41,691 nucleotides of DNA, taken from NCBI GenBank assembly GCA_020725405.1, contig DYFB01000087.1, positions 1 through 41,691 of the forward strand, given 5' to 3'. Below, in pieces: positions 6,244-41,527 of this stretch. The notes under the pieces were generated by a model that searched no databases, was not told the origin of the DNA, and worked only from the letters and a program-made list of their open reading frames with translations. This DNA is from Symbiobacterium sp. Its GTDB lineage: Bacteria > Bacillota > Sulfobacillia > UBA995 > UBA9673. A program made the translations under genes and the position numbers. The first letter of the stretch is position 1. Every line of letters begins with the position of its first letter.

Positions 6244-6333
6244 GGGACTCCCGGCGATAAGGGCAAACCCGTCGAAAGACGGGGACGCAAAGCCTCGGGT
6301 CTAAGGCCGAAGGGCTATGACGGCCGGGCTGCC
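6244..6333 (+). ncRNA. Cyclic di-GMP-I (GEMM-I) riboswitch aptamer
   Basis: All the GEMM-I landmarks are present in order. There is GGGCAAACC, then a perfect hairpin CCCGTC-GAAA-GACGGG with the GNRA loop, then the signature GGGACGCAAAGCC joining segment. The receptor side is GGTCTAAGGCC, followed by a second hairpin arm, and the 3' strand GGCCGGGCTGCC that closes P1. P1 can be drawn between CCCGG at 6250-6254 and CCGGG at 6324-6328. The aptamer binds c-di-GMP in the nascent RNA. It leads rightward into the small peptide and the HD-GYP histidine kinase, so it should link their expression to c-di-GMP level. Confidence 0.93.
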
Positions 6334-6365
6334 GAACCTCACGTCCCAGCCATCGCTTGTCCTTC

Positions 6366-6642: not shown

Positions 6643-9600
6643 GTGTTAGGGCTAACGTTCAACACCTATAGGACGGTCCTCACGGTTTCGAGCATCATCC
6701 TTATCATCGGGACGTTAGCGACCCTGGGCGGTTGCCCGCCCGCCTTCCTTTTGGCGGCCTTCGTCCTCACCTACGTCGCGGCCGAGTGGTTCCAGGTCGT
6801 CTTTCCGTCCGGGGCGGCCCTGTCCTTCGGCTCGACGGTGACCCTGGCGGCCATCGCCTGGCTCGGCCCGCAAGCAGGTGTTCTTCTCCAGAGCGCCGGG
6901 GCCCTCGCGAGCGGGGTAATCACCCGGACGCCGGCGGTCCGCCTCGCGGAGAACTTCTCGAACTACGTCCTTTCGGCCGCCGGAGCCGCCCTCGTCTACA
7001 GGGCTCTCGGCGGGGCTCCCGGGCAGGCCCCCGGAAGCGGGATGCCGGCCCTGGCACTTTCCATCGTCACCCTCTGCGCCGCGCAGGCTCTCTTCACCGC
7101 CCTGGCTCTCAGCCTCTACAAGGTCCGGCCTCTCTGGGCCTGCCTCAGGGACTTGGGGGGCCTGTCCCTGCTCCTGTCTCTCGGGGCCGCGTCTCTCTCC
7201 ATCCCTTTCCTCTGGGGCCTCGAGGTGTTCGGCCCTTCGACCGCGCTGGTCGCCACGGTGGTGGTCATCGTCCTGGCCTCGAGCGTGTCGCGGGTGGCCG
7301 CCCTGCGGTCTCAGCGCCGGGCCCTGACCCGTCTCTTGCCCCTCGCCCCGGCGCCGCAGACCGGAGTGTCCGACCGCGCGGAGGCGCTCTTCAGTCTCGT
7401 CTCCGCCCTGGCCTCGGCCGCGGGCCTCCCCGTCGAGGAGGCCGAGGCCCTGCAGAACGCGGCCCTCCTCCACGACGCCGGCTTCACCGAAACGGACGCT
7501 CAGGCCGCCGCGAGCCAGGACCCCCTGACGCCCGAACAGCTCCGGAAGATACGAGAGCACCCCCGCCGGGCGGCAATGCGGGTGGGCGAGGTCGGGAACC
7601 TCCTGTGGGTGGCGAGGATTCTCGAGACCCATCACGAGCACTACAACGGGTGGGGGTACCCTTTCGGGCTGAAGGGGGACGAGATACCGCTGCCCGCGGC
7701 TCTCCTGGGGTTGGCCGAAGCCTACCTGGCCCTCACTACCCCGCGGCCCTACCGGACCGGGACGAGGAGTCCCCAGCAGACCGTGGAGTACCTGAGAGCC
7801 CACAGCGGCGAGCAGTTCCATCCGGCCGCCGTCGCCGCCATCGAGAAGCTCCTGGAGTCCGGGGCTCTCGAACGGCTGGATACCCCGGGTGCTTCCCGCC
7901 TGGTCGAGGAGGCCGTGTCCCGGCTTAGACGGGCCAAGGAGCTGCCTGGCCTGCCGGGGAGGCCTTTCCCCGAGGCGACGCCGCGGGGTTTCTGGCTCGC
8001 CCCGGTCTGGAGGACCCGCTGGCTCCTCGCGCGGCTCTTCTCGCCGTGGACCGCGGTTCAGGTCCTCCACCGGACGAGCGATTGGTACCGCAGCCTCTAC
8101 GAGCTCGGGCAGGTCTTCAGCTCTTCGCTCGACCTCGGGGACATCGCCCGCCATCTCTCGCAGGCCGTCCACAACCTGACCACCCTCCCGTGCGAGGTCT
8201 GCCTGGTCCAGGAGGACGGCGAGACGCTGTCGCCGGTGGCCTCTCTGGGCCTGCCGCCCGGGGCCACGGCCGGCCTCACCCGGAAGGTCAACCGGGGACT
8301 CACCGGGGTCGCCTTCGCCGAATCACGGCCCGTCGTCTCCCTGGACATGTCGAACGACCCGCGGGCGCTCCAACCGGACAAGGTCAGGGAGCTCGGTCTG
8401 AAATCCTACATGGTCGTCCCCCTGGCCGTCGCCGGCACGCCTCTCGGGACCATTTCGGTGTACTCGCCTGCCGTCGAGCGGTTCTCTCCCGCCGAGTCCG
8501 AGATTCTCACGGCCGTAGCCAACCTCGCCGCGCTCACCCTCCAGAACGCGGTCCTCTACGCCAAGGCCTCCGACCGCCTGGTGGAGCTCATCGAGACCCA
8601 GTCGTTCCTGAGGACGGTCCTCAACACGGCGCCCATCGGCATTCTGACCCTGGACGCCCGGGGCCGGCTGTCGCTGGCTAACCGCGTGGCCTATCATTAT
8701 CTCGAGACTCTCGGTCTCGAGGCCGGGAGCGGGGGCGTCGGGAAAGGAGGCGGGGCTCGGGACGGAAACGGGGCCGGGGGAGCCGGGCAGGGCGATTTGG
8801 CCGAGGGGCTGCGGGCCCGGCTGGGCTTCGAGCTTCGCGGGGCGTCGTCGGCCGGAGGCGAGGTCGCCGGACCCGAGACGGTGCGGGTGGCTGGGACGGG
8901 CGGGGACCGCTTCTTCCAGGTGTGGGTCGCGCCGCTCGGCGACACCCGCAGGGAGAGGGCGGGCGGGCTCCTGGTCATACTGAACGACGTGAGCGCGGCC
9001 AAGAAACTCGAGGCCGAGGCCTCCCGCAACGAACGTCTGGCTGCCGCGGGCGAGATGGCCGCCCGGGCCGCTCACGAGATTCGCAACCCGCTGACGTCTC
9101 TGCAGGGCTTCGCCCAGCTTCTACGTCTCTACTGTCCGGTGAGGGACCAGTGGGGCGAGTGCTCGACCTTCATCGACCGAATCAGGGAGGAGGTCGAGCG
9201 CCTGGACGAGATAGTCGAGTCCATGCTCGTCCTCGCCCGCCCGGCCTGCCCCGACATCACCCGAGGGGACCTTTCTCTCCCGGTGCTGGAGGTCGTCAGC
9301 GGCTACGCCGGCCGGGCGGCCGAACTCGCGACGGTGCTCGAAGGACCGGTTGAACCCGGGGGAGTGACGGCCTACTTCGACTCCCGCCAGATACGGCAGG
9401 TCTTGATGAACCTCATCCAGAACGCCCTCGACGCCGTGTCCGGGCCGGGGGGGCCGCCGCCCGGCCAGCGGCGCGTCGTTGTCTCCGTGGGCTTCCGGCG
9501 ACGAAGCGGCCGCCGATTGGCCTGCGTCAGGGTCAGGGACAACGGGCCGGGCCTGCCGCCCGGGGACGAAGCCCAGATTTTCACGCCCTTTTTCACCACC

Positions 9601-9777
9601 AAGGACGGAGGCACGGGCCTGGGGCTGGCGGTCTCCAAGGGCATCGTCGAGGCCCACGGGGGAGCCATCGAGGTCCGGCCGACCCGAGGTCCCGGGACGG
9701 TCTTCGAGGTCCTCCTCCCGACGTCGTCGACCCGCGCTCCCGGTGCCTGGCGACGCCCGTCCCCCCGGGAAGGGTAG
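6643..9777 (+). CDS. Membrane histidine kinase with HD-GYP, GAF and PAS domains
   Basis: A 1044-residue sensor. Residues about 1-220 hold several hydrophobic helices, a MASE-like membrane input unit. Residues about 240-420 are an HD-GYP domain: LLHDAG with H277 and D278, REHP, THHEH with H330 and H331, GWGYP at 337-340, then LKGDEIPLPA and RPYRTG. The Lys of HDIGK is Phe here (F281) and the usual VAD is LAE, so metal binding may persist while phosphodiesterase activity is doubtful. A GAF domain (about 485-645) and a PAS domain (about 655-785, with a Gly-rich insert) follow. Then come HisKA with the phospho-acceptor H811 in AAHEIRNPL, and an HATPase domain with N box, DNGPGLP and GTGLGLA. No response regulator is adjacent. 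GTG 6643 follows GGGAG. The gene lies downstream of the c-di-GMP riboswitch. Confidence 0.92.
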   Translation: MLGLTFNTYRTVLTVSSIILIIGTLATLGGCPPAFLLAAFVLTYVAAEWFQVVFPSGAALSFGSTVTLAAIAWLGPQAGVLLQSAGALASGVITRTPAVRLAENFSNYVLSAAGAALVYRALGGAPGQAPGSGMPALALSIVTLCAAQALFTALALSLYKVRPLWACLRDLGGLSLLLSLGAASLSIPFLWGLEVFGPSTALVATVVVIVLASSVSRVAALRSQRRALTRLLPLAPAPQTGVSDRAEALFSLVSALASAAGLPVEEAEALQNAALLHDAGFTETDAQAAASQDPLTPEQLRKIREHPRRAAMRVGEVGNLLWVARILETHHEHYNGWGYPFGLKGDEIPLPAALLGLAEAYLALTTPRPYRTGTRSPQQTVEYLRAHSGEQFHPAAVAAIEKLLESGALERLDTPGASRLVEEAVSRLRRAKELPGLPGRPFPEATPRGFWLAPVWRTRWLLARLFSPWTAVQVLHRTSDWYRSLYELGQVFSSSLDLGDIARHLSQAVHNLTTLPCEVCLVQEDGETLSPVASLGLPPGATAGLTRKVNRGLTGVAFAESRPVVSLDMSNDPRALQPDKVRELGLKSYMVVPLAVAGTPLGTISVYSPAVERFSPAESEILTAVANLAALTLQNAVLYAKASDRLVELIETQSFLRTVLNTAPIGILTLDARGRLSLANRVAYHYLETLGLEAGSGGVGKGGGARDGNGAGGAGQGDLAEGLRARLGFELRGASSAGGEVAGPETVRVAGTGGDRFFQVWVAPLGDTRRERAGGLLVILNDVSAAKKLEAEASRNERLAAAGEMAARAAHEIRNPLTSLQGFAQLLRLYCPVRDQWGECSTFIDRIREEVERLDEIVESMLVLARPACPDITRGDLSLPVLEVVSGYAGRAAELATVLEGPVEPGGVTAYFDSRQIRQVLMNLIQNALDAVSGPGGPPPGQRRVVVSVGFRRRSGRRLACVRVRDNGPGLPPGDEAQIFTPFFTTKDGGTGLGLAVSKGIVEAHGGAIEVRPTRGPGTVFEVLLPTSSTRAPGAWRRPSPREG

Positions 9778-9904
9778 CCCGCTTCGGGGAAGAGGGGGCT
9801 CGATACGGAGGGAAGGGGAGTGCGTTTCGGGGAAGGGAGCCGCCTCGGCCCCGCCGAACGTCTCCGAGCCGCCGCGCGTGAGACGAGGGAGGTCTTCCGA
9901 GATT

Positions 9905-11296
9905 ATGCCAAGCCCGGGCTACAAGCTGGCCGTCATCGGGGGAGGGTCCAGCTACACCCCTGAGCTCGTCGAGGGTCTCATCGCCCGCCGGGATCGCCTG
10001 CCCCTGGCCGAGCTGGCCCTGGCGGACATCGAGGCCGGCCGGGAGAAGGTCGAGGCTGTCGCGGGCCTCGCCCGGAGGATGCTGCGGCGCGCCGGGCTCG
10101 AGGCCCGGGTGACGGTCACCTTCGACCGCCGTCGGGCCATCGACGGGGCGGACTTCGTCCTGAGCCAGTTCCGCGTCGGCGGGCTCCGGGCCCGGGTGAA
10201 CGATGAGCGCATCCCCCTGGCCTACGGCATCGTCGGGCAGGAGACGACGGGGCCCGGGGGGTTCTCCAAGGCTCTCCGCACGGTCCCCGTGGCCCTCGAG
10301 GTCGCGCGCGACGTGCGGGAGCTCGCTCCGGAAGCTTGGGTGATGAACTTCACCAACCCGGCCGGCATCGTCACCGAGGCCATCCTCAAGCACTCCGGCG
10401 GGGTGAGGTGCATCGGCCTGTGCAACGTCCCCGTCAGCCTGCAGCGGGCCGTGTGCGGGTTCGTCGGCGCCGAGCCCTGGCGGGTCGAGCTCGACATCGT
10501 GGGTCTGAACCACCTGGGCTGGGTGACCGCCGTGCGCCTGGACGGCGAGGACATCCTGCCGGCCGTCCTTTACCATCCGGTGGTCGAGGAGCAGTTCGTC
10601 CGGAACATCCCGGGGGCCTCGGGCATCGGTCCTCTTCTCGAGTCCCTGCGGATGCTCCCTTCACCCTATCTGCAGTACTACTACTTCCACGACGAGCTCC
10701 TGGCCAAGGTGAAGGAGGATATCGCCTGCGGGAAGGGCACGCGGGGGGAGCAGGTCCTGGCGGTCGAGGAGAAGCTCTTCGCCCGCTACCGGGACCCCGA
10801 CCTGGCCGAGAAGCCTCCCGAGCTCGAGAAGAGGGGCGGGGCCTACTACTCGGAGGCGGCTGTCGACGTCATGGTCTCGTTGGTGGGCGCGGCCGACGGT
10901 CCGCCTGACGGGCCCCGGAACCGCCACGTTGTGAACGTGCCCAACCTGATGGTCGATGACGAGCGCGGCTCGGGCGGCGAGGCCGGATCCCCTGGGGGCG
11001 GTCCGGTCCTTCCCGATCTTCCCGCCGGGGCCGTGATCGAGGTTCCCTGCCTCGTCGGGCCCCGGGGGCCGCGTCCGCTCGGCGGCGGCCCCCTCCCCAA
11101 GGAGATCCGCGGGCTCATCCAGCAGGTCAAGGCCTACGAGGAGCTCACCATCGAGGCCGCGGTCACGGGCGACCGCCGCACGGCCTTCCTGGCCCTCCTC
11201 GCCCATCCCCTCGTGCCCGGGGTGCGGGCGGCCGGGGGCCTCCTCGCTGACATCCTGGAGGCCGGTCGAGAGCACCTCGGGCGGTTCTTCCGGTAG
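9905..11296 (+). CDS. Family 4 glycoside hydrolase, 6-phospho-beta-glucosidase type
   Basis: A 463-residue GH4 enzyme. The N-terminus KLAVIGGGSSYTPEL is the NAD-binding Rossmann motif. NFTNPAGIVTEA, GLCNVPVS (the metal-binding Cys) and LNHLGW (metal and catalytic His) are the family hallmarks. GH4 enzymes cleave phosphorylated glycosides by a redox mechanism using NAD and Mn2+ in the cytosol. The CNVP form points to 6-phospho-beta-glucosidases such as LicH/BglT. ATG 9905 is chosen because the Rossmann strand follows and GAGGGAGG lies about 12 bases before it; the open frame extends far upstream without protein-like sequence. A Gly/Ser/Pro-rich insert (GSGGEAGSPGGGP) is extra. No PTS genes are nearby, so the sugar source is unclear. 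Confidence 0.9.
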   Translation: MPSPGYKLAVIGGGSSYTPELVEGLIARRDRLPLAELALADIEAGREKVEAVAGLARRMLRRAGLEARVTVTFDRRRAIDGADFVLSQFRVGGLRARVNDERIPLAYGIVGQETTGPGGFSKALRTVPVALEVARDVRELAPEAWVMNFTNPAGIVTEAILKHSGGVRCIGLCNVPVSLQRAVCGFVGAEPWRVELDIVGLNHLGWVTAVRLDGEDILPAVLYHPVVEEQFVRNIPGASGIGPLLESLRMLPSPYLQYYYFHDELLAKVKEDIACGKGTRGEQVLAVEEKLFARYRDPDLAEKPPELEKRGGAYYSEAAVDVMVSLVGAADGPPDGPRNRHVVNVPNLMVDDERGSGGEAGSPGGGPVLPDLPAGAVIEVPCLVGPRGPRPLGGGPLPKEIRGLIQQVKAYEELTIEAAVTGDRRTAFLALLAHPLVPGVRAAGGLLADILEAGREHLGRFFR

Positions 11297-12979: not shown

Positions 12980-14443
12980 TCAGGGAGCCGGCGGCCGCGA
13001 GACGGCCCTGCGGATGACCTCCAGCCGCTCGGGCCCGACCACCCCCAGGCGCCACACGGCTATCCCCGCAAGCCTCCTCCGCTTGGCCAGCCCTATCTTC
13101 GCGACCAGGGACTCGGGCGTCTCGTAGGTCCCGTCCCTGCCCACCAGGAGGCCGAGAAGAAGCTTCTCCCCCGGCACGACCGCCAGGGCGAGATCGACGG
13201 CTTCGATGACCTTGTCGAGGGGTTCGGGGCCTTTCAACGTGGTGTAGTTGTAGGCCATGATGACGATGCGGTCGGCGATCTCTCCGAGCGCCGCCCAGTC
13301 GTAGCCGGGGAACCAGCTGTTCAGCGGGTGGAGGCTCAGGGTCAGGGTCTTGCCCCGGGAGTGGAGCGCGTCCCCGAGGAGCCGGACGAACCCCGTGAAC
13401 CTCTGCCGGGTCAGGGCGAGCTCCTCGCCGGCTTGACGCCGGCCGAGGTATTCGAGGTCGAGGTTCACGCCGGCGAAGTCGACGGCGTAGGCCAGAATCT
13501 CCTCGACGGCCCGGGCCATGGCCGCGGGATCGGCCAGGAAGCGGTCAAGGTCCCCATCGGCGTTGGCCTTGAAGACCATCATCTCGGCCCGGAGGCCGTG
13601 CTCGCCGGCCTGCCGAAGGACGTCCTGCCAGGACGCCGGGCGAGTCTGGCGGTAGTAATCGTCGTCGAGGATCAGGCGACCGGTCGCCGGGTCGAGGACA
13701 AACCACGAGCAGGCTATCTCGGAGACGACGTCGGTCCCCCCCGAGGCGACGGCCGGGTACGGGGCTCCGAAGAGCTCGGCCCAGCTGCTGTCGTCTCGGC
13801 CGCCGAGAGCGTAGTAGCCGAGGACGGTCATGGGGCGGCGGGGGGAGACGACGGTTATCGTCCGGGTCGCCTCGCGCCACTCGACGAGCGCGCCGAGTGC
13901 CTCGGAGAAAAAGCGGAGGGGTATCAGGGTCCGGCCGTCGATGATGCGGGCCGGGACGTCCAGGAGGTGGACCTGACCGTCGACGAAGGCCTCGACCCTG
14001 TCGGCGAAGAGGATGACCGTCCGGCCGTTGTAGATGTCGACGGCCGTCACCCGGCGGTCGGCCTCGCTCCAGTCGACGGTGCAGCCGAGGGCCTCGGCCA
14101 GGAAGCGGAAGGGGACGAGGGCGCGGTCTCCGCTGATGACCGGGGGAACGTCGAAGTCCACGGTCAGGCGGTCGAGGTAGACGGTGATGGGCGGCAGGGC
14201 GGAGTTGGCCAGGGCGATGCCCGCGGGAGTCCCGCTGTCCGGCACCGGCTGGAGGGACGGCGGTGAGGCGCCGAGGATGACGGCGGCGGCCAGGGCGAGC
14301 CCCGCCGCTCGGCGGATAAGAGCCCGGGCGGGGGCTCGGTCGCGGGCAGCGGCGCGGTCGCGGACTGCGGTTGGGTCACGGGCAGCGGCGCGGTCGCCGG
14401 CCGCGGTTCGGGCATCGAGCTTCGGTCCTGGCAGTCTGGTCAT
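12980..14443 (-). CDS. Secreted GH18-fold protein with copper-amine-oxidase-N domain
   Basis: About 487 residues from ATG 14443. A basic Arg/Ala repeat head (RDRAAARDRAPARA) precedes a signal-peptide core (LALAAAVILGAS). Then come two halves of a copper amine oxidase N-terminal-like domain (ALVPFRFLAEALGCTVDW and TLIPLRFFSEALGALVEW), a common cell-wall-associated module in Bacillota. The C-terminal half is a GH18 barrel with VNLDLEYLG as the DxxDxDxE-type active site (Glu kept), plus IMAYNYT and GIAVWRLG. Relatives include spore-cortex and peptidoglycan glucosaminidases such as YaaH/YdhD. The likely role is extracytoplasmic cleavage of GlcNAc-containing polymer. The open frame extends 65 codons further upstream, but that part is Arg/Pro-rich and not convincing. 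Convergent with the PAP2-like gene. Confidence 0.88.
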   Translation of the reverse strand: MTRLPGPKLDARTAAGDRAAARDPTAVRDRAAARDRAPARALIRRAAGLALAAAVILGASPPSLQPVPDSGTPAGIALANSALPPITVYLDRLTVDFDVPPVISGDRALVPFRFLAEALGCTVDWSEADRRVTAVDIYNGRTVILFADRVEAFVDGQVHLLDVPARIIDGRTLIPLRFFSEALGALVEWREATRTITVVSPRRPMTVLGYYALGGRDDSSWAELFGAPYPAVASGGTDVVSEIACSWFVLDPATGRLILDDDYYRQTRPASWQDVLRQAGEHGLRAEMMVFKANADGDLDRFLADPAAMARAVEEILAYAVDFAGVNLDLEYLGRRQAGEELALTRQRFTGFVRLLGDALHSRGKTLTLSLHPLNSWFPGYDWAALGEIADRIVIMAYNYTTLKGPEPLDKVIEAVDLALAVVPGEKLLLGLLVGRDGTYETPESLVAKIGLAKRRRLAGIAVWRLGVVGPERLEVIRRAVSRPPAP

Positions 14444-14674
14444 GGTTACGGGTCCTACAGGCTCCTCTCGCGACGGACGGTGTGGGAGTGTTCCTTCCGC
14501 GGGCCGCCGGAGCCGGGCCCGGGGGCCCGCTCTCGCTCTCTTCCACGGAACCCGCTCCCGCCCGCCTAGGCTGATCCCGGAGGGTGGATTCGACCGCCCG
14601 ACTTGGGTGCCTGCCTGCGGTTCGGGGCTTTGCGACATCTTCGCTTAGCCGGTTGGCCCACTTGAGGTCAGTCC

Positions 14675-14764
14675 GGCCCGGGCGGTGTCCCCGGCCCGGG
14701 CGGTGTCCCCGGCCCGGGCGGTGTCCCGGGCCCGGGCGGTGTCCCCGGCCCGGCCGGGATCCGC
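14675..14764. repeat. 18-bp GC-rich tandem repeat in a 412-bp intergenic region
   Basis: The unit ggcccgggcggtgtcccc repeats four times (14675-14746) with a diverged fifth copy. It lies in the divergent gap 14444-14855 between the GH18 gene and the sugar-kinase gene. The copies are nearly identical and each can fold locally (GGCCCGGG). Apart from this, the gap holds no convincing gene; rightward and leftward frames through it are repeat translations. No clear promoter was seen. Confidence 0.88.
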
Positions 14765-14855
14765 GGCCCGGGAGGAGGAAGGGGCCTGCGTGAGAAGACT
14801 CTTCCAGGGGAAACCCTAAGCAGAACCCCCCGTACAGGGAGGGCTCGGGAAGGCG

Positions 14856-15899
14856 GTGGACGCCGTGGGCGCGGAGCGGTGCTTCTGCGGGGTGGACGGC
14901 GGGGCCACGAAGACCTGGGCTGTCGTCGGGGACGCGGCCGGACGTCTTCTCGGCTTCGGCGCCGCCGGCCCGGCTAACTACCACGTGGTCGGCATGGAGT
15001 CGGCCATGGGCTCGGTCCTGGCTGCGGCCGGCGCCGCCGCCGCGGCGGCGGGCGTCGACCTCTCCGACCTCGAGCGGGCCGGCTTCTACCTCTCCGGCGA
15101 CGACTCACCCCGGGACCACGCGTCCATCGGGGAGGCCCTGGCCGCGAGGCTCCCCCCGGGCCTTCCCTTCGATTGGGACAACGACAGTTGGGCCGCCCTG
15201 CGGGGCGGCACGCCCCGGCCCTGGGGCGCCGTGGTCATCGGGGGCACGGGGACCAACTCCGCCGCCCGGGGCCGGGACGGTCGCCGGGCCATAACCCGGG
15301 GTCTCGGGCGCGACACGGGGAACCCCGGTGGCTCGAGCGACATCGCCCGCGAGGCCGTCTTCTGGGCCTTCCGGATGGACGAGGGCTCCTGTCCCAAGAC
15401 GAGGCTCCACGGGGCCATCCTCCGGGCCCTCGACCTGCCCGACTACGATTCCGTTCTGCGGTGCGGCCAGACGGGCGACCTCGCCTTCCTCTACCAGGCC
15501 ATGGCCGTGGTGACGCCCCTTGTCTTCCGGCTGGCCAACGAGGGGGACGAGGCGGCCCAGCGCGTCCTAATCGACATGGGCCGGATGATGGGCGAACAGA
15601 CCGGGGCCGTGATGCGACGGGTGGGGCTCGACGGGGAGGAGGCCGACGTCGTCATGGCCGGCAGCCTGTTCCGGGGCGAGAGCCCCCTCCTCATCGACTC
15701 CCTGACCCTGCACATCCACCGCTTCGCCCCTCGGGCCCGGCCGCGGCTCCCGCTCTACCACCCCGTCGTCGGCGCCTACCTCCTGGCCCTGGAGGGGGCG
15801 GGTCTAGAAACCGGTCCCGGGACGTACGAGAGGATAGAGGAGACCCTCCCGGGTACCCTGCCCGAGCCGGGGCCGGTGATAGTCCTCGGGCTGGAGTAG
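14856..15899 (+). CDS. BadF/BadG-family ATPase, N-acetylglucosamine-kinase-like
   Basis: A 347-residue ASKHA-fold protein. CGVDGGATKTWAVVGD is the phosphate-1 loop, and GAVVIGGTGTNSAARG is the second phosphate motif. DNDSWAAL and GSSDIAREAV are typical of the BadF/BadG/BcrA family group that includes eukaryotic-type GlcNAc kinases. The probable role is ATP-dependent phosphorylation of an amino sugar in the cytosol, which would suit the GH18 protein encoded next door; that link is inference. GTG 14856 is used, with GGGAGGG about 12 bases before; GTG 14865 is an alternative. The stop TAG overlaps the strong GGAGG of the next reading frame. Confidence 0.82.
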   Translation: MDAVGAERCFCGVDGGATKTWAVVGDAAGRLLGFGAAGPANYHVVGMESAMGSVLAAAGAAAAAAGVDLSDLERAGFYLSGDDSPRDHASIGEALAARLPPGLPFDWDNDSWAALRGGTPRPWGAVVIGGTGTNSAARGRDGRRAITRGLGRDTGNPGGSSDIAREAVFWAFRMDEGSCPKTRLHGAILRALDLPDYDSVLRCGQTGDLAFLYQAMAVVTPLVFRLANEGDEAAQRVLIDMGRMMGEQTGAVMRRVGLDGEEADVVMAGSLFRGESPLLIDSLTLHIHRFAPRARPRLPLYHPVVGAYLLALEGAGLETGPGTYERIEETLPGTLPEPGPVIVLGLE

Positions 15900-15912
15900 G
15901 AGGTGCGTGGGC

Positions 15913-16138
15913 TTGAGCGGCAACAACGGCCACGGTCGAAGGCTCCCGGAGGAGCTCTCGCGGTCGTTCATCGACGCGGCCGGACCTCCGCCGGGAGAGG
16001 GCCGTCCGGCCCTGGCCCGCTGGCCTCGACGAGGTCCTGGAGCGAACCCTGGTGGCCCCGCGGGAGGCGGCTCGAGGGCGCCTGCGGCGGCCTGCTCCGG
16101 CGGCGCCGGACGAAGAGGGAAGGGGAGGGGGAGGTTGA
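15913..16138 (+). pseudogene. Small frame-shifted ORF upstream of the CDF gene
   Basis: A strong GGAGG (about 15898-15903) precedes TTG 15913, which opens MSGNNGHGRRLPEELSRSFI and continues to ALARW near 16023. From there the original frame turns into Pro/Gly/Arg-rich noise. The next frame instead reads LDEVLERTLVAPREAARGRL and ends at TGA 16136-16138, overlapping the CDF start as TTGA. One extra C in tggcctcgac would explain the switch. Joined, it would be a protein of about 74 residues of unknown function. It may be a real frameshift or a base-call error, or the whole region may be an N-terminal extension of the CDF protein. Confidence 0.4.
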
Positions 16139-37149: not shown

Positions 37150-37425
37150 ATGGACGCCCACGAGGAGCCGGGGAGTTTGTGGTATGAGTACGGTCCCGCG
37201 ATGAATAACGGGGCGAACCTAATTACCGGCGGCAGCGTTGATGGCAACGTTTCCGCACTCTTCGGCTCCCCCTTCGTCATCGCGGGAAACGTGGGCTCGG
37301 ACCGGCCCGCCGGCCCCTGGGCGCGGGCGGCCGGCGGGCCGGTCCGCTGGGCTATTGGCTCAGGTTGTCCTCCGGGACGTAGACCTCGAGGGTGTAGGAG
37401 GTGGTCCCGCCGGAGTAGAGGTTGA
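37150..37425 (+). CDS. Doubtful 91-residue ORF in a less GC-rich gap
   Basis: The first half reads LWYEYGPAMNNGANLITGGS, then a VDGNV and VIAGNVGS pattern that looks like a short beta-helix, while the second half is Arg/Pro-rich and runs antisense into the protease gene. The ribosome site is weak. The gap 37074-37351 is clearly richer in A and T (around 37170-37260) than its neighbours, so it may hold regulatory DNA or a gene fragment instead. Confidence 0.25.
   Translation: MDAHEEPGSLWYEYGPAMNNGANLITGGSVDGNVSALFGSPFVIAGNVGSDRPAGPWARAAGGPVRWAIGSGCPPGRRPRGCRRWSRRSRG
37299..37345 (-). terminator. Long hairpin after the protease gene
   Basis: A perfect 16-bp inverted repeat (37299-37314 with 37330-37345) around a 15-base loop, ending 7 bp beyond the protease stop. 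It has no T tract on the leftward strand. It probably acts as a terminator or a 3'-end stabilising hairpin. Confidence 0.6.
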
Positions 37426-39949
37426 CCCGCACCCGCCAGTCGCCGGTCATGTCGATGGTCATCCAGAGGGTCTCCGGGTTGTTGAGGGTGTAGGCCCGCC
37501 CGCGGTAGGTCCCCGCCGGGTCGTAGACGTAGAAGTCTAGGTCAGCGCTTCCCGGCCAGCTCAGGCGGAAGAGCGAGTAGCCGGTGTAATCGCAGGTCAC
37601 GGTATGCCACTGGTCGCGGGCGCTGCTCGAGACTGTCCCGGTCCAGGCCTTCTTCTCGTAACCCTCGACCTCCAGATTGAAGTCGCTGTCAGCGCCGCTG
37701 TAGAGGTTGACCCGCACGGTGTAGGTGCCCGTCCCGTACTGGTCGGTGTAGACTCTCAGCTTCTCAGGGTTGCTGAGGGTGTAGGCCCGGCCGATGTAGG
37801 TGCCGTCGGGGGCGTAGACGTAGAAGTCGAGGTCGGCCGAGGTGTTCCAGGACAGGGTGAGGTAGACGTAGCCCGCGGTGTGGACCGTGAAGTAGAGGTA
37901 GGCGTCGCGCTGGGACGAGGTGACCCGGCCGGGTAGGTTGAGCTCGTGGGCGGTGGCCGGGGCCTCGTTGGCGACCGTGCAGCTCTTCGAGTCCGTGGCC
38001 GTCTGGCCGGCGTCGTCGGTCGCCCGGGCCGTGACCGTGTGGGTCCCGTCGGCGGAGGCTGTGGTGTCCCAGGTGTACGTGTAGTGGGAGCCGTCGAAGT
38101 TCGCCGTGATGTCCACCCACGCCCCGCCGTCTATGCTCACCTCGACCTTCACGAGGTTGTTGTCGTCAGAGGCCTGGGCCTTGACGGTGTAGGTCCCGGA
38201 GACCGTCTCGCCCTCGGCGGGGCTGACCACGCTGACCGCCGGCGGGTTGTCCGGCGGCGGCGGGGGCTCGCCGAGACCGGCGCTCATATCCAGGGTGTAG
38301 GGGCCGCTTCCGGCGTAGGAGTGGACCTTGACCCGGTAGGTCCCTGTCACCGAGGGGACGACGCCGATGGTCTCCTGCCGAGACGTCCCGATGCTCTTGG
38401 CGAGCTCCGAACCTGACGGACTGTAGAGATAGAGGTCGAAATCGGGGTTCGACGAGCTCGACCAGTTGAGCATGATCAGGGTCAGGGCGATGGGGTAGTC
38501 GGTCGTCGTGACTTCGAGGTTATACCAGTGGGTGTCGCCCGTCCCGCCGAGCGAGGACTCCGCGACCCGGTGGACCGGGACCGCGGGCCCGGTCCCGCTG
38601 AAGCCGCCCGCCGCCCGGACGGCCTCGTAGCCGTCGAGGCGTCCGGCGCCGTAGTCGATGTCCTTCCCGGAGACGCACCAGTCCTGGGATGTCTGGCCGA
38701 GCAGGCTCTTGACCTGGGCCGGGGTGAGGGAGGGATCGGCGTCGAGCATGAGGGCCACCGTCCCGGCGACGAAAGGCGTGGCCATGCTCGTCCCGCTGTA
38801 GGCGACGTAGCTGTTCGGCGTGTTGGCCTTGGGGGCCATGATGCTGACGCCGGGGGCGGCGATGTCGGGTTTGATCCGGTTGTCGGCCGTGGGCCCGCGG
38901 CTCGAGAAGGAGGCCAGCGAGAAGCCTTTCTCGCCGCAGTCGGCCATGGCCCCGACGGTGATGGCGTGCTCGGCCGCCGCCGGGGAGCCGACGGTGTACT
39001 TCGCCGGTCCGCTGTTGCCGGCCGCCACCACGGGGACGATGCCTTCGGCCGCCGCGCGGTTCACCGCCTGGCTCAGACTGTCGGTCCCGTCCGAGCTTCC
39101 GCTCGACCCGAGGGACATGCTGATGATCTCGATGCCGTAGGTGCTCTTGTTGGTGATACACCAGTCCACCGCGGCGGTGATGGTGCTCATGGATCCCGAG
39201 CCCGACGAGTTCAGAACCTTGAGGCCGATGAGGGCCGCTCCGGTAGCGACGCCGCGGTAGGCGGCGTTCCCGTCGCCCTCGCCGGCGGCGATGCCGGCGC
39301 AGTGGGTGCCGTGCCCGTGGTCGTCGTAGGGAGTGGCGCGGTTGTTGATGTAGTCCTTCCAGGCAATGATTTTGCCGCCGTCAAGGTCGACGTGGCCCGG
39401 GTCGATCCCGGTGTCGATGACGGCGATGACGATGTCGTCTTTGGTGTAGGTCCTTTCCGCCCCGTCCCGGTCGCCGGTGAGGCCGAAGTCGGCCCGGGCC
39501 TTGGCCACGCCGAACCAGGTCGAGGCGGTGTCCATGCAGACGTGGACCGGATGGTCGTACTCGACCTGGACGACGACGGGCAGGGCGGCGAGGGCGCGCA
39601 CCTGGGCCGGCTTCAGGTTGAGGGCGAGGTAGGGGAAGTTGGCGTAGGTGCGGTTGACGCTGAAGGCCCCGAGGGGCCGCTCGAGCTCCCGGGAGATCAC
39701 CGGACGACTGAAGACGGCGATGACCGGGATAGTCTCGTCCTCCGCCGCTGTTCCGATGAGTTTGTCGAGGTCGTCGAAGATTCTGTTACCGTCAAGGTCC
39801 ATCATCCGTCGGCCGCCCAGGGGGGACGCCCCGGGCGGGGCCGGCTCACCCGCCAGGGCTGCCGCGGGCCCTAGGGCAAGGCTCAGGACGAAGGCCAAAG
39901 CGAGGGCCAACCAGGCCGCTCTGCGGCTGCGAGGTCGTCGTGCGTTCAC
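37352..39949 (-). CDS. Secreted subtilisin-like serine protease with PPC and Ig-like domains
   Basis: 865 residues. The signal peptide (RRAAWLALALAFVLSLALG) is followed by a propeptide (about 40-140). The S8 catalytic domain follows, with D179 in VIDTGIDPGH, H213 in HGHGTHCAG, Asn in AAGNSGP and S388 in GTSMATPF. Then come a PPC domain (about 470-565), an Ig-like domain (PPAVSVVSPAEGETVSGTYT) and two closely similar PPC domains that both contain ADLDFYVY and GRAYTL, ending at residue 865. PPC domains usually aid secretion or substrate contact and may be removed. GTG 39949 has AGGAGGTGC about 9 bases before. A LuxR-type regulator gene lies 39 bp upstream on the same strand. Confidence 0.95.
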   Translation of the reverse strand: MNARRPRSRRAAWLALALAFVLSLALGPAAALAGEPAPPGASPLGGRRMMDLDGNRIFDDLDKLIGTAAEDETIPVIAVFSRPVISRELERPLGAFSVNRTYANFPYLALNLKPAQVRALAALPVVVQVEYDHPVHVCMDTASTWFGVAKARADFGLTGDRDGAERTYTKDDIVIAVIDTGIDPGHVDLDGGKIIAWKDYINNRATPYDDHGHGTHCAGIAAGEGDGNAAYRGVATGAALIGLKVLNSSGSGSMSTITAAVDWCITNKSTYGIEIISMSLGSSGSSDGTDSLSQAVNRAAAEGIVPVVAAGNSGPAKYTVGSPAAAEHAITVGAMADCGEKGFSLASFSSRGPTADNRIKPDIAAPGVSIMAPKANTPNSYVAYSGTSMATPFVAGTVALMLDADPSLTPAQVKSLLGQTSQDWCVSGKDIDYGAGRLDGYEAVRAAGGFSGTGPAVPVHRVAESSLGGTGDTHWYNLEVTTTDYPIALTLIMLNWSSSSNPDFDLYLYSPSGSELAKSIGTSRQETIGVVPSVTGTYRVKVHSYAGSGPYTLDMSAGLGEPPPPPDNPPAVSVVSPAEGETVSGTYTVKAQASDDNNLVKVEVSIDGGAWVDITANFDGSHYTYTWDTTASADGTHTVTARATDDAGQTATDSKSCTVANEAPATAHELNLPGRVTSSQRDAYLYFTVHTAGYVYLTLSWNTSADLDFYVYAPDGTYIGRAYTLSNPEKLRVYTDQYGTGTYTVRVNLYSGADSDFNLEVEGYEKKAWTGTVSSSARDQWHTVTCDYTGYSLFRLSWPGSADLDFYVYDPAGTYRGRAYTLNNPETLWMTIDMTGDWRVRVNLYSGGTTSYTLEVYVPEDNLSQ

Positions 39950-39988: not shown

Positions 39989-40318
39989 TCAGGGCGGCGG
40001 CGGCCGCCCCAGCCGTCCGGGGTCAGCCTGGCTGCGGGCGGCCGCGGCTTCAGTCGCCAGGAGGGCGATGACCATGGAGAGGAGGTGCCTGGTCGAGCGA
40101 CTCCCTGTCTTCTTGAGGAGGTTCCCGACGTGGAACTTGACGGTGCTTCGGGAGAGGAACAGCGCGGCGGACATCTCGTCTGTCGAACGACCCTGCGACA
40201 GCTGCTCCAGGACGGCCAGCTCGCGCGAAGTCAGGTGGGGCCAGCGGCGACTGACGACAGCGGAAACGAAACCCGCCCGCGGCTCCTGCGCTCGGAGCGG
40301 CAAAGAGCCGTCAGACAT
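39989..40318 (-). CDS. Stand-alone LuxR/GerE-type HTH regulator
   Basis: A 109-residue protein. The LuxR-type HTH is at about residues 27-85: LTSRELAVLEQLSQGRSTDE, then LFLSRSTVKFHVGNLLKKTG. There is no receiver or ligand domain, as in the Bacillus sporulation regulator GerE. ATG 40318 has GGAGGAGG about 10 bases before. It is first in a likely operon with the secreted protease and probably controls it. A 20-bp lux-box-like palindrome lies about 110 bp upstream. Confidence 0.88.
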   Translation of the reverse strand: MSDGSLPLRAQEPRAGFVSAVVSRRWPHLTSRELAVLEQLSQGRSTDEMSAALFLSRSTVKFHVGNLLKKTGSRSTRHLLSMVIALLATEAAAARSQADPGRLGRPPPP

Positions 40319-40427
40319 GACTTTGGTCCTCCTCCGTCCGTCCGGCCGGGGGCCGGGCGGGGTCAGGTGGGCCGCGTCCGGGGTAGATTCCCTCCCTGGA
40401 TATGGCAGTCCTGCCTATCTCTTGCAA

Positions 40428-40447
40428 ACCTGTACCTAGGTCCAGGT
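40428..40447. promoter_or_regulatory. Lux-box-like 20-bp inverted repeat
   Basis: ACCTGTACCTAGGTCCAGGT has outer arms ACCTG/CAGGT and a perfect 8-bp core ACCTAGGT. By eye it agrees with the classic Vibrio lux box at 14 of 20 positions. On the leftward strand it abuts a TTGCAA (40422-40427) that could be the -35 of the LuxR-type gene, the position used by class II activators; the matching -10 (CATATC) is weak. Confidence 0.55.
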
Positions 40448-40614
40448 GCACGCCTGCGGTCCGCGGCCCGCCGCTGCCCCCAAAAACCCGCCCTGGGCTC
40501 CGAAATCTCTCTAGGAAAGGGCGGTAGCGCCATTTCCGGAGAGAGAGAGAGGACAGAGAACGCCGCTCCGGGCGAGCGGGAAGGCCGTTCGGGGGCCTGC
40601 CCCGGATGCGATTT

Positions 40615-40630
40615 AACCGGTCGACCGGTT
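40615..40630. promoter_or_regulatory. Perfect 16-bp palindrome upstream of the DUF5667 gene
   Basis: AACCGGTCGACCGGTT, symmetric over 16 bases, lies 40 bp before ATG 40670. Its place just before the ribosome site suits an operator. The 351-bp divergent gap 40319-40669 otherwise holds the lux-box-like repeat and no gene. Confidence 0.55.
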
Positions 40631-40669
40631 TAGCGGTCACTTCGCAAGAGAGGGGAGGCGACGTCGATA

Positions 40670-41527
40670 ATGATCAAGAGACTGGCGGTCATCCTCACGT
40701 TTATGATGATTGGCTCGTTTCTGGCCGGGCCGGCCGTTCTGGCCGTGGAGAGCAGCGAAGCGGGGGACGAGGACCTGCCGGATCCGGGCATCCTTCCGGG
40801 GTCTCCGCTGTACTTCCTCAAGCGGGCCTGGGAGGGCCTGAAGCTGCGGCTTACGCGGGCCCCCGAAGACAGGGCGGTCTACATCGCCCATCTCCTCGAG
40901 GTCCGACTGGCCGAATGCAGCGCCCTGGCCGAGAGGGGCCGGGAGAGGCTTCTCGCCCGGACGCTCGAGGACTACCGGGCCCTCGCCGACAGGGCCGAGG
41001 CCGAGATGGAGCAGGCCGCCGGCCGGGGGGCGGACCTCACCGAGGCGCTCGTGGCTGTGGAACGGGCCACGAGGAAGGGCGGCGAGGTCCTGACCCGGGT
41101 CATGGGCGAGGTGCCGGAACAGGCCCGGACGGCGGTCCGCCTGGCTCTCCAGGCGGCGAACTTCGGACGGGAGACCTGCCTTAGGATGATGGAGCGGGTT
41201 CACCAGGGGGCCGTCCCCGGCAGCCGGGAGGTCATCGCCGAGCTGCTCCAGAGCATCCGGGAGACACTTCCGGCGGGCTGGCAGCTTCCTCCGGGGCTAG
41301 GCCCGGGCGGCGGGCCGGACGGTGACGACGATGATGAGGCCGAGTCCGGACAGGCTCCCGGGCAGGGGCAGGGCGGTCAGGACCTGGGACAGAGCCAGGC
41401 TCCCGCCCAGGCCCAGACCCCCGGTCAGGGTGAGACCCCCGGTCAGGGCCAGAGTTCCAGCCAGAGTGCGGGCCAGGGCCAGACCCCCGGTCAAGGGCAG
41501 AACCCCGGCCAGGGCGGAGGCGGGTGA
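40670..41527 (+). CDS. Secreted DUF5667-domain protein with Gly/Gln-rich tail
   Basis: 285 residues. A signal peptide (LAVILTFMMIGSFLAGPAVLA) is followed by a DUF5667 domain: LPDPGILPGSPLYFLKRAWE, then LRLTRAPEDRAVYIAHLLEV and long helices to about residue 205. The tail (about 215-285) is acidic, then Gln/Gly/Pro-rich with repeated TPGQGQ units. DUF5667 proteins are extracytoplasmic and of unknown function. ATG 40670 follows GGGGAGG. Divergent from the LuxR-type gene. A strong terminator follows. Confidence 0.87.
   Translation: MIKRLAVILTFMMIGSFLAGPAVLAVESSEAGDEDLPDPGILPGSPLYFLKRAWEGLKLRLTRAPEDRAVYIAHLLEVRLAECSALAERGRERLLARTLEDYRALADRAEAEMEQAAGRGADLTEALVAVERATRKGGEVLTRVMGEVPEQARTAVRLALQAANFGRETCLRMMERVHQGAVPGSREVIAELLQSIRETLPAGWQLPPGLGPGGGPDGDDDDEAESGQAPGQGQGGQDLGQSQAPAQAQTPGQGETPGQGQSSSQSAGQGQTPGQGQNPGQGGGG

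Follow-up and report, generated by a model that had tools for sequence, protein, structure and literature searches.

A 20-bp near-palindrome ahead of a GerE-type regulator gene and a subtilase gene in Symbiobacterium sp.: a possible operator of a local two-gene operon

The stretch of DNA analyzed in this work (hereafter, the window) is one entire contig of a Symbiobacterium sp. genome, 41,691 bases long with 71% G+C; the source genome (G000) comprises 2.23 Mb in 97 contigs and is 95% complete. The locus of interest consists of two genes on the minus strand and a divergent gene on the plus strand, separated by a 351-bp intergenic region containing two separate, unlike near-palindromes. Its features are as follows.

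39949..37352, minus strand: 865-aa subtilase, GTG start (PF00082, E = 7.3e-61; PF17957; PF04151)
40318..39989, minus strand: 109-aa stand-alone GerE/LuxR-type HTH regulator, ATG start (PF00196, E = 2.7e-14)
40399..40404, minus strand: CATATC, a possible weak -10 element (3/6 to TATAAT, below the scan threshold)
40422..40427, minus strand: TTGCAA, a possible weak -35 element, self-complementary (4/6 to TTGACA)
40428..40447, no strand assigned: candidate operator, the 20-bp near-palindrome ACCTGTACCTAGGTCCAGGT, with 9/10 complementary pairs (hereafter, the dyad)
40613..40632, no strand assigned: second near-palindrome TTAACCGGTCGACCGGTTTA, found in a palindrome scan, its inner 16 bp perfect
40670..41527, plus strand: divergent gene of a 285-aa DUF5667 protein (PF18915, E = 2.8e-18)

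Two further elements were observed elsewhere in the window. A c-di-GMP-I-GGC riboswitch (77.8 bits) lies at 6253-6337, about 300 bp ahead of a 1044-aa ORF (6643-9777) in which HD-GYP-like, GAF-like, and histidine-kinase-like parts were recognized by eye. At the contig end (41639-41691), there is a match to the first part of the group II intron model RF02003; with 21.8 bits (E = 0.0039), it falls short of the gathering score of 49, and the end of the contig truncates it. The assembly may have broken here at a copy of such an intron.

The regulator gene has a G+C content of 0.68/0.56/0.83 by codon position. In its product, PF00196 spans residues 29-82 of 109 with 53 bits against a curated cut-off of 23.5, which places the protein in the GerE/LuxR HTH superfamily, and no other Pfam family was found in it at E<=0.01. 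GerE being its sole Pfam domain, the initial annotation was right to call it a stand-alone LuxR-type regulator. The protein ends with an Ala/Pro-rich tail and has no cysteine. Among solved structures, its best match is GerE (1fse, 74 aa, E = 1e-6, 32.2 bits), followed by VpsT (29.7 bits), CviR (28.8 bits), and ChrA (28.5 bits), response regulators being among these matches within a few bits. In the CviR alignment, its stretch STVKFHV is paired with RTVKFHV. Of the NCBIfam families, the response regulator MadR scores best (46.2 bits, cut-off 300); no NCBIfam family's cut-off was reached. GerE domains in general commonly carry the residues E178, L182, and G188 (TraR numbering). An excerpt of PMC4338825 gives them as conserved HTH residues of quorum-sensing LuxR receptors, and, judged by eye against that excerpt, RELAVLEQLSQG of the regulator has the E, the L at +4, and the G at +10.

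The autoinducer-binding domain PF03472 is not present in the regulator, and none was found in the 95% complete genome, the E. coli control being positive. LuxI-type synthase PF00765 had no match in the genome, nor in any of the 14 control genomes, which deprives this negative of weight. Other GerE matches in the genome comprise two above and one below the cut-off; the two above it look by eye like two-component proteins, one a response regulator encoded behind a histidine kinase gene (contig C61), the other a kinase to which a receiver and a GerE domain are fused (contig C15). Homologues of the regulator at E<=1e-8 were detected in 4 of the 60 relatives searched (35-48% identity); the relatives searched did not include a member of the same genus. 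In a scan of genome contigs, for which 80 of at least 81 confirmed homologues were kept, the best match listed had E = 1e-13 and 44% identity. The regulator has no close relative among the 60 relatives or among the contig-scan matches listed.

The subtilase gene follows in the same direction, with a gap of 39 bp, in agreement with the earlier description of a subtilisin behind the regulator. PPC and Big_7 domains were identified in its product, whose N-terminus looks signal-like by eye. Another contig of the same genome, C10, carries two more subtilase genes close to one another (8581-10245 and 14430-16058; locus L108); their identity to the subtilase described here is 53%, and the match to the first of them contains one in-frame TAA.

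In the intergenic region, the inverted repeat reported in the initial annotation was located exactly at 40428-40447, with TTGCAA directly adjacent on the side of the regulator gene. The dyad carries CTG-N10-CAG ends, falls among the more AT-rich patches of its region, and is identical on either strand at 14 of 20 positions to the Vibrio fischeri lux box ACCTGTAGGATCGTACAGGT, as that box is given in an excerpt of PMC4444344. TTGCAA and CATATC are separated by a spacer of 17 bp and might together form a weak promoter, although a sigma-70-like promoter scan of the region returned none above threshold. No Rfam family was found at the dyad site, and a terminator-like hairpin on the minus strand (40579-40563) is within chance (0.3 expected). 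The second near-palindrome lies nearer the divergent gene, 37 bp ahead of it, and is possibly the operator of this DUF5667 gene, whose product has a Gly/Gln/Pro-rich tail and, by eye, a signal-like N-terminus. The earlier description of the sequence is accurate and the observation is confirmed, and the interpretation attached to it is partly supported.

The likeness of the dyad to the lux box has to be read against what the DNA yields by chance. A score of 14/20 is reached at five window positions, none exceeding it, and a specific lux-box identity of the repeat is thus not supported; in 30 simulated windows such positions averaged 1.0 and never numbered more than 4, so real DNA here yields more of them than simulation does. 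Similarly, 20-bp palindromes with 9/10 pairs occur at 11 window positions (two of them overlapping), against 4.9 (s.d. 1.9) in simulated windows. Among simulated 351-bp sequences with the composition of intergenic DNA, a lux score of at least 14 was found in 0.8%, and at least one such palindrome in 2.6% or 2.9% (two runs). Two separate palindromes of this quality, the state seen here, occurred in 0.02% of the simulated sequences and in 0.6% of the overlapping real 351-bp segments (n = 5710) taken from the window to the left of the locus. Sites both palindromic and lux-like to the degree of the dyad were absent from 60 simulated windows, a joint criterion that was chosen after the site had been seen. 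A chance expectation of 0.19 for the site pattern was discarded as circular, the pattern having been trimmed to the positions common to the site and the lux box. Since two separate near-palindromes are rare in 351 bp, one or more functional dyads are probably present in the intergenic region, the statistic specifying neither which of them nor which protein.

The initial annotation had proposed a search for other copies of the repeat in the genome; allowing up to 3 mismatches, the dyad occurs there once, and so it is not present ahead of the two C10 subtilase genes. The conservation search covered the genome itself, 3 other family members, and 17 other relatives. At the same threshold, no match was found in the 3 family members, and matches in 3 of the 17 other relatives (G004, G005, and G018) would look like chance, as a reversed control matched in three further genomes (G006, G008, and G009). 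The half-site pattern ACCTG-N10-CAGGT shows no enrichment: at up to 1 mismatch, 59 occurrences were counted in the genome and 60 for the control. Of the two exact occurrences of the pattern, one is the dyad and the other lies on contig C83. One genome copy and a half-site pattern devoid of enrichment do not point to a regulon marked by the dyad. We also inspected GerE genes with short reading frames (<=170 aa), which make up 6 of the 86 GerE-gene loci compared (L004-L090 minus L010, the window's own). The upstream check covered five of the six, L074, whose match begins at a contig end, being left out; no dyad-like site was found upstream of these five genes, which are remote relatives (best 11-12/20), and upstream of one (L068) there is an unlike palindrome with 8/10 pairs. 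The second near-palindrome, at up to 3 mismatches, is unique to its own locus among the 21 genomes, its reversed control having one match each in G012 and G020.

Counting the source genome itself, 6 of the 21 genomes encode close relatives of the subtilase (E<=1e-60). In the five others (G002, G005, G008, G018, and G019), the regulator has no match at E<=1e-8, which leaves a conserved regulator-protease pair unsupported there. The closest relatives outside the genome are those of G002 (split on two contigs; 80% identity over residues 237-864 and 71% over 10-239) and G018 (61% identity over residues 9-863). Their upstream contexts were read, with gene names assigned by eye: a divergent DUF362/ferredoxin-like gene in G002 and a co-directional ThiT-like transporter gene in G018. 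In G002, the homologue of the DUF5667 gene (50% identity) sits behind an SbcC-like gene (by eye), with no room for an intergenic region of this kind. As these contexts differ, the regulator is unmatched in the subtilase-bearing genomes, and G002 leaves no such room, the region with both palindromes is particular to this species among the genomes compared. Within the DNA flanking the GerE match (1.5 kb for L004-L009, otherwise up to 4 kb), none of the 86 loci showed a subtilase match at E<=1e-4. A literature search for an operon of a LuxR-family regulator and a subtilase found no matching paper.

Several known systems resemble parts of this arrangement. Like GerE of Bacillus subtilis, the regulator is small and consists essentially of one GerE HTH domain, without a sensor domain; the similarity is at the HTH level, the regulator differs in its 109-aa length with an Ala/Pro-rich tail, and no evidence for a common regulon was found. 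With the LuxR/lux box system of V. fischeri it shares a GerE-family DNA-binding domain and a 20-bp dyad beside a -35-like hexamer, the two dyads agreeing at 14/20 positions, whereas the regulator has no autoinducer-binding domain. CviR of Chromobacterium has a similar recognition-helix stretch; it is, however, a full AHL receptor, whereas the regulator is a GerE domain alone. The CviR site consensus, CTGNCCNNNNGGNCAG in an excerpt of PMC9654057, agrees with the dyad at 8/10 positions, and scores of 8 or 9 against the consensus in that excerpt are reached at 77 window positions. Finally, PedR of cyanobacteria is likewise a short HTH-only protein and gives a weak NCBIfam match (32.8 bits), far under the cut-off of 120. 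Redox control by PedR is cysteine-based, and control of this type was dropped because the regulator has no cysteine.

Taken together, the arrangement is most likely of an ordinary kind, with a small HTH regulator beside its likely target gene and a dyad in front. We tentatively propose, at a confidence somewhat short of even, that the dyad is an operator, probably the regulator's own, in a local autoregulated two-gene operon. The HTH-only regulator would bind, probably as a dimer, to the dyad beside the -35 element of the promoter from which it is itself expressed; once bound, it would set transcription of its own gene and of the subtilase gene behind it. The dyad sits where an activator or a repressor could bind. 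Because it lies just upstream of the weak -35 element, its center about 45 bp ahead of the start guessed from TTGCAA, 17 bp, and CATATC, activation would fit this position, and self-activation by the regulator is possible; repression is conceivable too. As the protein has no known sensor domain, its activity might be set by its amount, by promoter drive, or by a partner. Counted in favor of the operon were the dyad adjacent to TTGCAA, the presence of two palindromes, the 0.8% frequency of the lux score, GerE as the sole domain and as structure match, the CviR-like STVKFHV, the CTG-N10-CAG ends, and the 39-bp gap. Counted against it were the single copy of the site, the missing enrichment, the unmatched regulator in subtilase-bearing genomes, the lack of a promoter passing the scan, and the five short-frame GerE genes devoid of a like site.

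That the dyad arose by chance and regulates nothing is unlikely, yet has to be taken seriously: the window offers 11 equally good palindromes and five lux-like positions, the 2.9% of intergenic-like sequences with such a palindrome means that a reader of the whole window would meet some, and the dyad has neither a second genome copy nor a counterpart in the family members. The rarity of two separate palindromes in 351 bp, both in simulated and in real stretches, argues against this, as does the position of the dyad within one of the more AT-rich patches. The same pair of unlike palindromes in one divergent intergenic region would also suit a dyad serving a different factor, e.g., one that represses the regulator-subtilase promoter or the DUF5667 gene, the more so as binding by the neighboring regulator is an assumption. 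No other factor was seen beside the dyad, however, and the palindrome nearest the DUF5667 start is the second one, which makes this explanation rather improbable.

The probabilities given here are not wholly exclusive, since a GerE-like sporulation regulator whose protease acts in sporulation would be a special case of the operon. The encoded Spo0A makes a sporulation or stationary-phase role possible, and GerE is the best solved-structure match; it leads VpsT, CviR, and ChrA by only a few bits, though, and the best NCBIfam match points to MadR, so that we regard this version as a long shot. A true quorum-sensing lux system, in which an AHL receptor and a lux box control the protease, could appeal to the 14/20 identity and the CTG-N10-CAG core. 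It is hardly credible and was rejected because no autoinducer-binding domain exists in the protein, which has the GerE domain alone, or was found in the 95% complete genome, where the E. coli control shows that the search works. Doubtful, finally, is the broader proposal that, in a Spo0A-bearing bacterium, an HTH-only LuxR-type regulator devoid of a signal receptor acts through a lux-box-type operator to activate its own expression and to switch on a secreted subtilase, recognizing a lux box independently of quorum sensing.

The lux-box label for the dyad is weak and should be avoided unless binding is demonstrated. If the regulator does not bind the dyad, the case would illustrate how readily DNA with 71% G+C produces 14/20 matches to the lux box. 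If it does, this would be a simple example, from a little-sampled lineage, of a LuxR-type protein that has no receptor and controls a secreted protease.
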